DNA from: Kiritimatiellaceae bacterium
GTDB taxonomy: Bacteria > Verrucomicrobiota > Kiritimatiellia > Kiritimatiellales > Tichowtungiaceae
DNA length: 50,149 bases
NCBI GenBank assembly: GCA_013141415.1
Contig: JABFQY010000004.1
Span: 1 to 50,149, forward strand
Direction of reading: 5' to 3'
Part shown: piece by piece, positions 46,973 to 50,149 of the stretch
How positions within the stretch are numbered: the stretch's first letter is position 1
Layout of the letters: each line of letters starts with the position of its first letter
Program-made: the position numbers and the translations under genes
Notes under the pieces: model-generated
What the model was told of the DNA's origin: nothing
What the model saw: only the letters and a program-made list of their open reading frames with translations
The model's database searches: none

Positions 46973-47248
46973 TCATCCAACCAGTGCCAGAACATCCGAA
47001 ATTCTCAGCCGGAAGGCTCCGGAATAGATTTCAACTTTTTTCAATTTGCCCGCTTTTATCATTCGCCAAAGCGTGGCTCGACTGACTCCTAACAACTCGG
47101 TGGCTTCCCCCATAGTCAGCAACAAAGGCCCGCTTAATGCCTGTCGAACCTCTTTGTTTTGAAGGATATCCAAGGCCTTCATTTTGGCCTCATCATCTGC
47201 CGTGAAAACGGACAGGATGATCTGCTCGTTTAACGTTCGTGTATCCAT
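46973..47248 (-). CDS. Excisionase-type helix-turn-helix DNA-binding protein
   Basis: 91 aa. ATG 47248 has AAGGAG about 6 nt upstream. The C-terminal half (about 43-90) is an excisionase/MerR-like winged helix: LTMGEATELLGVSRATLWRMIKAGKLKKVEI, ending RISDVLALV. The N-terminal 40 residues are helical and may dimerise. Such proteins act as excisionases, as antitoxin-like regulators or as small repressors; no integrase or toxin is next to it. Target unknown. Confidence 0.85.
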   Translation of the reverse strand: MDTRTLNEQIILSVFTADDEAKMKALDILQNKEVRQALSGPLLLTMGEATELLGVSRATLWRMIKAGKLKKVEIYSGAFRLRISDVLALVG

Positions 47249-47354
47249 TTTTCTCTCCTTGGTGCGTGTAGCTATGCTTAAGAAAAGAAATGCCCGCAAC
47301 TATTGCGAACCAGAAACCACTCATCCAGCAATCCAATCATCCACCATTCCAGAC

Positions 47355-48065
47355 CTAAAGGCCAAGGAACTGGATGGCGACGCCGGAAAGGCCAATCGCG
47401 CCGCCAGCCAGTGCATGCGTCCAGCGCTCCAGTTTTCCGAGGCGGGCAAAGCTGATTCCCCATGAAGCGGCCATGACAATGGCCATCATTGTAAAGATCG
47501 TCACCGCGCTGAACACCGTCGCAACCAGCACCGTGCCAAGAAGACTATGCTGTGAAGCCGGATACATCAGCAGCGGAATCAGCGGCTCGCACGGACCGAG
47601 TACGAAGATGGTAAACAGAATCCACGGCGTGATGTTGGCTTTTTTCGCCGGTTCGTGCGCATGGAAATGTACGCCGTCATGGCTGTGCGAATGGGCCGGC
47701 TCACAGTTTTCTTTCAAATGAAGATGGGTGTGCGGACGGTTGCGGATGCCGCGCTGAATGCCCCAGCCCATATAAGCGAAACCAAATCCAATCAATGCCC
47801 ACGCCGCGATGTTTCCGCGAAACGCCTCGAACGCTTCCAGCTTCATGACGGCGATACCGCAGGCGATACCGATCAGGCCGAGCACCACCGAGCTGAGCAC
47901 ATGACCCAGACCGCAGAAAAAGGTAATCCACGCCGTTTTCGTCGAACTCCATTTGCGGGCGCGGTTCATGACGATAAACGGCAGATAATGGTCCGGCCCG
48001 AAAATCGTATGCACAAATCCGATTGTTGCGGCGGTCCAGCATAGAATGGCGACATCCATGTTCAT
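47355..48065 (-). CDS. Nickel/cobalt permease with a His-rich loop
   Basis: 236 aa from ATG 48065 (AGGA 9 nt upstream); the frame continues upstream through a REP, but that part is not credible. Six hydrophobic spans. TM1 carries FVHTIFGPDHYLPF (His and Asp of the metal path, as in NiCoT/UreH/RcnA-like carriers). The cytoplasmic loop about 112-137 is packed with histidines (HTHLHL, HSHSHDGVHFHAHE), a metal store or sensor. TM4 has GPCEPLIPLLMYPA, typical of the UreH/TauE-like Ni permease branch. A nickel repressor gene (nikR) lies 1.5 kb away and a candidate NikR operator lies just upstream. Confidence 0.88.
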   Translation of the reverse strand: MNMDVAILCWTAATIGFVHTIFGPDHYLPFIVMNRARKWSSTKTAWITFFCGLGHVLSSVVLGLIGIACGIAVMKLEAFEAFRGNIAAWALIGFGFAYMGWGIQRGIRNRPHTHLHLKENCEPAHSHSHDGVHFHAHEPAKKANITPWILFTIFVLGPCEPLIPLLMYPASQHSLLGTVLVATVFSAVTIFTMMAIVMAASWGISFARLGKLERWTHALAGGAIGLSGVAIQFLGL

Positions 48066-48082
48066 AAAGACGTTCCTGCGAT

Positions 48083-48109
48083 TGATTACGAATTGAGAAA
48101 ACGTAACAC
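48083..48109. promoter_or_regulatory. Candidate NikR operator upstream of the nickel permease
   Basis: TGATTAC (48083-48089), 13-nt spacer, GTAACAC (48103-48109). The inverted core TTACG...CGTAA is perfect over 5 bp on each side. It lies 18 bp upstream of the permease start. From memory, NikR of several deltaproteobacteria binds GTGTTAC-N(12-14)-GTAACAC; the right half matches fully and the left in its TTAC core. nikR is in the same neighbourhood. Confidence 0.6.
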
Positions 48110-48180
48110 CTGAGAGAGAAATAATCCATCCCGAAAACCAAATCGTTTCCTCGATTGCAAAGACCGTCCCTGTTTCAAGG

Positions 48181-48201
48181 CAGGCAGGATGCCTGCGGTA
48201 C
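48181..48201. repeat. GTAC-type REP hairpin upstream of the permease
   Basis: Read on the minus strand: GTACC, GCAGGC, loop ATCCT, GCCTGC. Same layout as 17326-17347 and the arms of 20260-20339. Confidence 0.6.
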
Positions 48202-48333
48202 GTAACAAACTGAAAATTAATGATTTCCGGTTTGTCATGATTGGACCGCAACACTACATTCACGGCATTGGCAGTTTAACCTTTCAAAAACCAAAGTAAG
48301 GCTGATAACCCGGTTGGATTTAGGATAAAGACA

Positions 48334-48504
48334 ATGACCGATACCGTAAAAAACAGCCAAGGCGAACCCCTCCCCGACAACTGTTGCCCTCTATGCTGGC
48401 AAGCCGATCTCGGTCGATTCCCACTTCGTCCCAAACTTTGCACCCAACTGCAGATTGAAAAATGTTCAAATCCTGAGTGCAATTTTGAGTGCATAGCAAG
48501 CTGA
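48334..48504 (+). CDS. 56-aa cysteine-rich small protein
   Basis: ATG 48334 has AGGAT about 7 nt upstream; stop TGA 48502-48504. Seven cysteines in 56 residues: C17, C18, C21 (CCPLCW), C36, C44, C49 and C53 (CSNPECNFEC). The CCxxC and Cx4CxxxC spacings suggest a small zinc-ribbon or metal-binding fold. It has no signal peptide, so it is probably cytoplasmic. The stop lies 19 nt before the next gene, which has its own AGGAG, so the pair forms an operon. I do not recognise the family. Confidence 0.7.
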   Translation: MTDTVKNSQGEPLPDNCCPLCWQADLGRFPLRPKLCTQLQIEKCSNPECNFECIAS

Positions 48505-48523
48505 ATAACAGGAGCGTATTACC

Positions 48524-49111
48524 ATGAACTTTATTAAAAAAACCGTTTACTTCAACGAGGGGAAGACAATTTCAAAACGCCTTCTCAATACACTTCAGGC
48601 TGGCCCCGAAATTCGTGTGGCAAAAATCTCAGTTCTCTCCGCGGTCTTGTTCCAAGGTTTCCTTAATAATCAACCAGCCATGAAACTACTTCTCGCCCCA
48701 CACAGATTCACCGAAGACGAGTTAATACAACTCTATACAGACCTCACTGGTATATTAAACTCCACCAGAAAGAATCGCCAACAACTTGAATACAACAAGA
48801 ACGCATTAGGCTTGCCGTTCCCTGATTTTGCCATAGACCTTGTGAAGATTAGTGAGTCAGTTATCGAGCTTTGGTTAGCCACCTTGATTTCTGGAGTTTT
48901 TCCAAAACTCGAACCCACCGCCAGACAAGCATGGAACCTGATCAACGCATCTCGCATCATGCACGATGATGCGCTCAATGAACTCAAAGAAACCGAACAA
49001 AAATCAACAGAACTGACCGGGGCGACCGGACCAATGACCTACAACGAGATTGATTCGGTGACCTGCCTTGAATATTCAAACATGATGCCAGCGTTCAGAT
49101 CTCTGTCATGA
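48524..49111 (+). CDS. Hypothetical protein, 195 aa, mostly helical
   Basis: ATG 48524 follows AGGAG by about 9 nt. The product appears helical and soluble, with a Thr-rich C-terminal end (ELTGATGPMT). One mildly hydrophobic helix (VIELWLATLISGVF, about 108-121) is probably buried rather than membrane-spanning. The base composition is more AT-rich than the surrounding genes, as in the other two members of this small cassette, suggesting acquisition. I do not recognise a family. Confidence 0.7.
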   Translation: MNFIKKTVYFNEGKTISKRLLNTLQAGPEIRVAKISVLSAVLFQGFLNNQPAMKLLLAPHRFTEDELIQLYTDLTGILNSTRKNRQQLEYNKNALGLPFPDFAIDLVKISESVIELWLATLISGVFPKLEPTARQAWNLINASRIMHDDALNELKETEQKSTELTGATGPMTYNEIDSVTCLEYSNMMPAFRSLS

Positions 49112-49150
49112 AGACATAGAAAATCCAACCACCGCTTTCACATCTGTCAC

Positions 49151-49166
49151 CCCCGCACTTGCGGGG
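49151..49166. other. GC-rich hairpin between the cassette genes
   Basis: CCCCGC-ACTT-GCGGGG, a 6-bp GC stem with a tetraloop, 40 nt upstream of the 77-aa gene. There is no T-run. It could be a weak terminator, a processing site or a piece of a dispersed repeat. Confidence 0.4.
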
Positions 49167-49206
49167 CTCAGATTGACGAGTAACGTTCGGCAAAGGAGAA
49201 CAACAG

Positions 49207-49440
49207 ATGGACTTAATTGATAAAATCAAGACCGCACTCGATGCGGCCCGCGACAACAGGACTAAGACAGCAACATTCCACAGCATGATACTAATCCATG
49301 CCAAGGAACTGGAGGATCGTGACGCTCTCGATTTCTGTCGAAGAGTTGGCATCGAAGATGTGTGGAAAGTTGAATTCAAGAGGATGATCTCTGCGGCTAG
49401 GATGCTTCGAGAACTCGGATTCGACATCACCAAGAAGTAA
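49207..49440 (+). CDS. Hypothetical protein, 77 aa
   Basis: ATG 49207 follows AAGGAG by about 8 nt. A small, charged, helical protein (MDLIDKIKTALDAARDNRTKTA ... ARMLRELGFDITKK) with no signal or TM segment. It lies downstream of the 195-aa gene in the same direction, in the same AT-rich cassette between the nickel permease and nikR. I do not recognise a family. Confidence 0.65.
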   Translation: MDLIDKIKTALDAARDNRTKTATFHSMILIHAKELEDRDALDFCRRVGIEDVWKVEFKRMISAARMLRELGFDITKK

Positions 49441-49464
49441 AAATTAATACCGAACAACCGACTT

Positions 49465-49480
49465 CACCGCGTACGCGGTG
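49465..49480. other. Perfect palindrome after the 77-aa gene
   Basis: CACCGCGTACGCGGTG is a 16-bp perfect palindrome 25 nt after the stop codon. It could be a terminator stem or a protein-binding site; there is no T-run. Confidence 0.4.
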
Positions 49481-49565
49481 CCCGAAGCGGTGGAGTGAAT
49501 CATGATAAACTCTAGGGCAGGCATCGCGCCGAGTGAGCCCCACGTTCAATCCGCAAGAACTCGTT

Positions 49566-49970
49566 TCACAGCTTTCTTCCGGTGCTGGCGGCGGTGAGTT
49601 CGCCGGATTTGACACCCTTGGCCGCTTTCAACTGGTCGGCCATTTCGCGGATTTCGCGGGCTTCGCCTTTGACGATAATCACTTCGAGGCAGTTGTGATG
49701 ATCCATGTGAACGTGCGTCGATGAAACAATCCGGTCGTGGTGGTCGTGCTGGATGGCGGTGAGTTTATCCTGAAGCTGGCGCTGGTGGTGGTCGTACACC
49801 AGCGTGATCACGCCGACGACTTCTTCGCCCGCCTGCCACTCTTCATCAATCAGCGCTTTACGCACCAGATCGCGCACCGCCTCGGAGCGGTTGGAATAGC
49901 CGCGCCGGTCCAGATGTCCGTCGAACTTTTTGACCAGATCGTCTTCCATCGAAATCGAAAAGCGTTCCAT
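49566..49970 (-). CDS. nikR: Nickel-responsive transcriptional regulator NikR
   Basis: 134 aa, ribbon-helix-helix repressor that binds Ni(II) and shuts off nickel uptake. ATG 49970 has GGAGG 6 nt upstream. The N-terminal RHH domain is at about 1-45 (ERFSISMEDDLVKKFDGHL, GYSNRSEAVRDLVRKAL). The C-terminal ACT-like metal domain carries the Ni ligands in IVSSTHVHMDHHNCLEVIIVKG: His86, His88 and Cys94 plus an upstream His (QHDHHD, about 75-78) from the partner subunit. It faces the nickel permease across the small cassette. Confidence 0.95.
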   Translation of the reverse strand: MERFSISMEDDLVKKFDGHLDRRGYSNRSEAVRDLVRKALIDEEWQAGEEVVGVITLVYDHHQRQLQDKLTAIQHDHHDRIVSSTHVHMDHHNCLEVIIVKGEAREIREMADQLKAAKGVKSGELTAASTGRKL

Positions 49971-49988
49971 TTAAACCTCCTTATATTC

Positions 49989-50012
49989 GCCGGGTGAGGT
50001 CACCCGGCCTAC
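49989..50012 (-). repeat. Single REP (24 bp) next to nikR
   Basis: Reverse complement of the unit at 17561-17584, identical over all 24 bp plus the GAATA tail (minus strand: GTAG, stem GCCGGGT/ACCCGGC, loop GACCTC). The GTAG foot points to the right edge, where a possible IS110-type gene begins within 80 bp. Confidence 0.88.
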
Positions 50013-50087
50013 AAATCCAAAATGTAGATGCTATGTGAGTTGCCGCAATCGCTATAATCCTTAGTGGAACAACAAAAGGAGGACAGC

Positions 50088-50149
50088 ATGACGGACAACT
50101 CACATAACAGCGATACGTTACTGGTGGCGATGGAGCTGAGCAACAGCAA
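50088..50149 (+). CDS. Partial gene, possibly an IS110-family transposase start
   Basis: Only 20 codons are in the window. ATG 50088 has a strong AGGAGG 5 nt upstream. The segment TLLVAMELSNS resembles, from memory, the beginning of some IS110-family transposases (an ELS...WKL opening with the first catalytic Asp/Glu of the DEDD set). The upstream 75 bp hold an isolated TATAAT (50053-50058) without a -35, as seen at the left ends of elements that form junction promoters on circularisation. It is adjacent to a REP, a known target of this family. Too short to be certain. Confidence 0.4.
   Translation, partial: MTDNSHNSDTLLVAMELSNS

Follow-up and report, generated by a model that had tools for sequence, protein, structure and literature searches.

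We analysed a window of 50,149 nucleotides at the start of contig JABFQY010000004.1 from a Kiritimatiellaceae bacterium (genome G000). Near its end lies a gene for a 236-aa membrane permease with a His-rich loop (47355..48065, minus strand), a presumed nickel importer called UreH-like from its Pfam match, conserved residues and gene context. Upstream of this gene is an imperfect inverted repeat (48083..48109, minus strand), which we predict to be a NikR operator from its sequence, an independent matrix and the sites of congeners. It is followed directly upstream by a conserved leader with the presumed promoter region (48110..48180, minus strand), which resembles the leader in genome G296 and is partly conserved in G003. 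The gene nikR, encoding a nickel-responsive ribbon-helix-helix (RHH) repressor (PF08753, PF01402, PRK04460), is found at 49566..49970 on the minus strand. Two ORFs separate the permease gene and nikR (48524-49111 and 49207-49440), one without a Pfam match and one matching HTH_73; neither of them appeared among the ORFs listed for the G003 locus. Upstream of nikR the contig continues for another 180 bp and stops within the start of a new ORF (MTDNSHNSDTLLVAMELSNSK, 50060-50149) that by eye is perhaps an insertion element. The window gave no plasmid match.

A nikR gene close to the repeat had been proposed by an earlier sequence-only reading, and it is real: it is encoded 1.5 kb from the operator and its product matches both domain and equivalog profiles. 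NikR_C (PF08753) was detected with an E-value of 5.6e-36 and 123 bits (cut-off 22), RHH_1 (PF01402) with 30.6 bits (cut-off 20.5) and the NCBIfam NikR equivalog PRK04460 with 190.7 bits (cut-off 105); the cut-off of TIGR02793 was missed (132.8 vs 175.45). When aligned to solved NikR chains, 1q5v among them, the protein has H75, H86, H88 and C94 at the nickel-ligand positions, in a numbering that we take to be that of the three His and one Cys ligands. As to autoregulation, no box was found upstream of nikR in the window, where the best score was -3.8 bits. Both CxxC motifs of [NiFe] hydrogenases are present in a G000 protein, in the sequences RICGICSFIH and DPCISCTER, which makes a nickel demand plausible; we assume this hydrogenase to be group-4-like.

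On the forward strand the repeat consists of TGATTAC (48083-48089), a 13-bp spacer (48090-48102) and GTAACAC (48103-48109), exactly as first described, and it reads GTGTTAC-N13-GTAATCA on the minus strand. The promoter-distal half-site GTGTTAC (48103..48109, minus strand) matches the consensus perfectly; the start-codon-proximal half-site GTAATCA (48083..48089, minus strand) keeps 4/7 bases of the consensus GTAACAC. Altogether, the site shows 11/14 consensus bases of GTGTTAC-N13-GTAACAC, with all 3 mismatches in one half. It does lie upstream of the permease as had been noted, but the gap to the ATG (at 48065, minus strand) is 17 bp and not 18 bp. Its resemblance to NikR sites is likewise genuine, but with 3/7 bases differing in one half the raw match is weaker than was first worded. 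Indeed, 0.79 three-mismatch strings are expected by chance per window, so the bare match is not beyond chance, and the 2.2 Mb genome contains 23 distinct three-mismatch N13 places. These numbers favour a chance resemblance, an imperfect inverted repeat that happens to precede a transporter gene. Because the bare string is weak, the decision rests on independent comparisons.

We therefore scored the site with a half-site matrix built from 18 boxes, each matching at least 12/14, from genera other than that of the window; 2/18 came from stretches chosen for a perfect box (L122 and L137) and the remaining 16 from NikR surroundings. With 16.8 bits, the window site came out on top of all N13/N14 places in the window (runner-up, 9.3 bits) and first among the 23 genomic three-mismatch places (next, 14.1 bits), which argues against chance. 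An Rfam search of 47000-50149 for a riboswitch as an alternative gave nothing up to an E-value of 1.

This kind of operator is already known, having first been described in sulfate- and metal-reducing bacteria; we now follow it into a lineage far removed from these, and into numerous further ones. According to Rodionov et al. 2004 (PMC545781), delta-proteobacterial NikR sites follow GTGTTAC-[N13/14]-GTAACAC and those of enterics GTATGAT-[N13/14]-ATCATAC, which bears out the earlier distinction between a GTGTTAC-type consensus and an enteric GTATGA type. The N13 spacer of the window site is within the 13/14 bp range of the GTGTTAC type. The Geobacter/Desulfovibrio-type sites share with ours two inverted 7-bp half-sites, a spacer of 13/14 and a NikR in the genome, and they precede nickel transport genes as ours precedes a presumed nickel importer; however, the window belongs to another phylum (Kiritimatiellaeota/Verrucomicrobia), one of its half-sites is degenerate and its target is a UreH-like permease, not nikMQO. 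The Escherichia coli nikABCDE operator, given as GTATGA-N16-TCATAC in PMC7055735, is also an inverted repeat, ~28 bp in length, and is recognised by an RHH repressor whose metal site is conserved, but its half-site sequence differs and GTATGAT has no 13/14 peak in the NikR neighbourhoods of the phylum. PMC5317091 reports a NikR-like motif outside Proteobacteria, before the nickel transport genes of the nikMNQO and TonB loci of Caldithrix abyssi, a likeness drawn from the description and not from motif letters. Our literature search found no NikR site in print for the lineages studied here. The NikR of Geobacter uraniireducens has reportedly been the subject of a binding study.

Is the motif tied to NikR within the phylum? 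We searched 63 stretches (444 kb) around NikR_C matches, two of which (L132 and L139) had no NikR ORF by phmmer, with spacers from 5 to 25. Matches of at least 13/14 to GTGTTAC-N-GTAACAC numbered ten, nine at spacer 14, one at spacer 13 and none at the other 19 spacers. Four control patterns (reversed, everted, permuted and enteric) gave two matches in 84 cells, everted at 9 and permuted at 5. The divergent order GTAACAC..GTGTTAC and the enteric GTATGAT were rejected, as they showed no 13/14 peak beyond scatter at the 12/14 and 13/14 levels; the exception among the controls was a set of 4 everted matches of at least 12 at spacer 13. Perfect GTGTTAC-N12-14-GTAACAC boxes occurred in 6/288 genomes of the phylum, all six among the 97/288 with NikR. 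Three of these boxes lie beside nikR on its contig and three on other contigs, including the box of G004, which has an N12 spacer. Six stretches have a box that ends 1 bp short of the nikR start. A box of at least 11/14 is lacking from many of the phylum's NikR stretches; thus the GTGTTAC type is not universal there.

These results bear on the idea that another regulator, such as a Fur-family or other RHH repressor, uses the site to control the same genes. Binding of NikR to the operator is a prediction from sequence, and G295 has a weak site with no NikR found (its assembly is 81% complete), both of which leave room for such a regulator. Yet the published NikR consensus (PMC545781) agrees in sequence and spacer, the six stretches have their sites immediately before nikR, and sites track nikR presence. 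We thus regard control by another regulator as very improbable.

The same association was apparent at permease loci across phyla. We took the best 80 of 588 confirmed loci from GTDB species genomes; nikR lies within the fetched stretch in 18 of them, often directly before the permease. A site of at least 15 bits was present at 14/18 loci with nikR compared with 0/62 without (Fisher P 2e-12, best 80 of 588). Upstream DNA was long enough in 77 of these 80 loci, and the top five sites lying immediately ahead of a permease all came from nikR loci. Chance would hardly produce so strong an association between site and NikR in the best 80 of 588 loci. The 14 site-bearing loci include Cloacimonadota (3), Verrucomicrobia (1, G003), Ratteibacteria, Thermodesulfovibrionia, Omnitrophota (2), Ignavibacteria, Bacteroidales, Paludibacter (2) and UBP2. 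One of the three Cloacimonadota loci (L195) encodes a permease 75% identical to that of the window, on a contig that may be misbinned or transferred. Since site-bearing loci occur in many phyla, the operator type is not delta-proteobacterial only. The sequence-only reading is supported in assigning a GTGTTAC-type site to this lineage, but the type is not a delta-proteobacterial speciality.

We next compared the 14 genomes of the genus, 8 of which have the permease and 6 NikR. The sites before the permease scored 16.8 bits in G000, 23.1 in G003, 14.4 in G295 and 13.3 in G294, those of G294 and G295 being weak. G003 has the permease and nikR in the same order as the window, with a 12/14 permease box. 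In addition, the outer-membrane-like gene (PF13557) adjoining its nikR has a perfect box 14 bp ahead of it. This boxed gene is missing at the contig end of the window and has no match in G000. A perfect N13 box precedes an outer-membrane-like gene beside nikR in G003, G289 and G294. The order in G294 is lysS, nikR, perfect box, PF13557 gene, weak box (13.3 bits) and permease; lysS is named by similarity to a protein of L195 (Pfam, class II tRNA synthetase). In G295, the end of a PF13557-type gene is followed by the 14.4-bit site and the permease. In G289, nikR, a perfect box and an outer-membrane-like gene lie at a contig end, and the permease begins at the first base of another contig; its upstream site is therefore not visible. 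G127 is without the permease and has lysS, nikR, an 11/14 box and nikM-Q-O. In G029, G079 and G288 the permease stands directly behind lysS with no site, and no NikR was found in these genomes (G288 is 66% complete). Conservation before orthologous permeases, which the sequence-only reading had named as a check, holds in those congeners that show both nikR and the permease; the three lysS-linked permeases, in genomes without a NikR found, have no site.

G296 provided the best single argument, both that the site is an operator and that the permease substrate would be nickel. In this genome genes for CbiM/NikM, CbiQ and an ECF ATPase occupy the place before a helicase gene, the same helicase as in the window, and no permease match was found. 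The leader and operator of nikM in G296 are identical to those of the window in 83/95 columns, and in 25/27 within the box. On the sequence comparison, promoter and operator were retained while one transporter replaced another. Profile names assign the G296 CbiM to cobalt; we infer that it is nickel-type from its NikR neighbourhood. Permease and nikMQO interchange at two positions, one preceding the helicase and one following lysS. Across congeners (L186, L059, L058, L180 and L064) these positions are filled variously by nikR, nikMQO or the permease, with nickel genes turning over as modules.

All together, the matrix rank, the conservation of the G296 leader and the co-occurrence of site and nikR in the best 80 of 588 permease loci lead us to reject chance as the whole explanation. 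A position kept in congeners, with 25/27 bases retained before G296 nikM, adds to this, and a mere chance resemblance appears highly improbable. Support for reading it as a NikR operator comes from the orthologous loci, from the co-occurrence with nikR, from the specific spacer lengths and from the exchange of permease and nikMQO behind a shared operator. The inverted repeat is thus very probably the predicted operator of NikR before the UreH-like permease.

The permease (N-terminus MNMDVAILC...) has a single Pfam match, to DsbD_2 (PF13386, E 3.5e-06), as do 11/12 of its relatives; we take PF13386 to be a UreH-like transmembrane domain. No NicO or HupE_UreJ Pfam match and no NCBIfam match were obtained for the permease. 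Invariant residues are H19-T20, G23-P24-D25-H26 and the loop histidines 112, 114 and 116. The His-rich loop cited earlier as evidence for nickel is thus real and its histidines are conserved, but this is mild evidence only. Sequence comparison with solved structures gave no useful match, and the predicted model (pLDDT 84) matched no solved fold with E < 0.001; nickel transport by this permease therefore rests on context. From its gene context we call the permease UreH-like and presume it to be a nickel importer. Like the UreH nickel permeases of Zhang et al. 2009 (PMC2667541), it is a membrane protein in a nickel gene context; unlike that family it lacks a NicO or HupE_UreJ Pfam match, so that UreH-like is a putative label.

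It could be argued that NikR binds the site but that the permease moves cobalt or exports nickel, the logic being activation or export control. The match to DsbD_2 as the sole Pfam hit and the missing solved-fold match are compatible with this, and NikR of H. pylori can activate as well as repress. However, in G296 and G127 it is nikMQO, by family an importer, that stands under such a site, and at both the helicase and the lysS position the permease alternates with nikMQO. We consider this alternative unlikely, although less so than chance or another regulator.

We are highly confident in the best overall explanation, an operator through which NikR would repress a nickel-importing UreH-like permease in a nickel-dependent manner. 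When nickel is plentiful, a Ni(II)-loaded NikR tetramer would contact the two half-sites, GTGTTAC and GTAATCA with 20 bp between their centres, through one ribbon-helix-helix dimer each, occlude the promoter and switch the permease off. When nickel is scarce, NikR would release the operator and the permease would be made, bringing in nickel for enzymes that need it, for example the group-4-like [NiFe] hydrogenase presumed in G000. A simple scan gave no sigma-70 match on the minus strand of the window leader, whose own -35 is weak. By eye, TTGAC(A/G) stands ~17-18 bp before a TACGAG inside the box in the promoters of the outer-membrane gene in G003, G289 and G294 and of the L195 permease. With TACGAG inside the box of these sibling promoters, the operator would cover the -10, and occlusion is the natural reading. 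We infer NikR-DNA binding, repression over activation, the -10 overlap and the identity of the transported metal as nickel. None of this alters the accepted view of NikR action.

For lineages with no NikR site found in print, this work provides a usable, tested NikR matrix, and nickel regulons become readable in uncultured genomes. An otherwise unassigned permease family of many phyla is also tied to nickel by regulation and natural gene swapping. More tentatively, GTRTTAC-N13/14-GTAAYAC could be a common NikR site across many phyla that regulates more than uptake: a UreH-like permease that can stand in for nikMQO and vice versa, an outer-membrane channel of the Phenol_MetA_deg type through which nickel may enter, and a nickel-free urea carboxylase operon in family f38. 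We would place this wider proposal slightly short of an even bet. If true, NikR chooses between nickel-dependent and nickel-free routes.

In f38, NikR-type boxes lie beside nikR and before DUF1989 genes at L149:3855-3882 (12/14), L127:3518-3545 (13/14), L153:3397-3424 (11/14) and L134:3181-3208 (11/14); the f38 stretches L132 and L135 have no box. The first gene behind the box is UAAP1 (TIGR03425) in L149 and L127, followed in L149 by UAAP2 and urea carboxylase (TIGR02712). This gene order suggests that NikR may control a nickel-free urea (or guanidine) route in f38.

Phenol_MetA_deg (PF13557) outer-membrane-like genes were seen directly behind a NikR box, beside nikR, at L057:6244-7005, L180:3930-4694 and L130:3526-4260, and their product is a candidate outer-membrane nickel channel. 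Genes of similar size behind the perfect boxes of L122 and L137 gave no Pfam match. Lastly, a 13/14 N14 box of G127 (L060:3375-3402) stands 36 bp before a gene for an NMT1-like ABC substrate-binding protein; a divergent NikR homologue is encoded 3 kb away.
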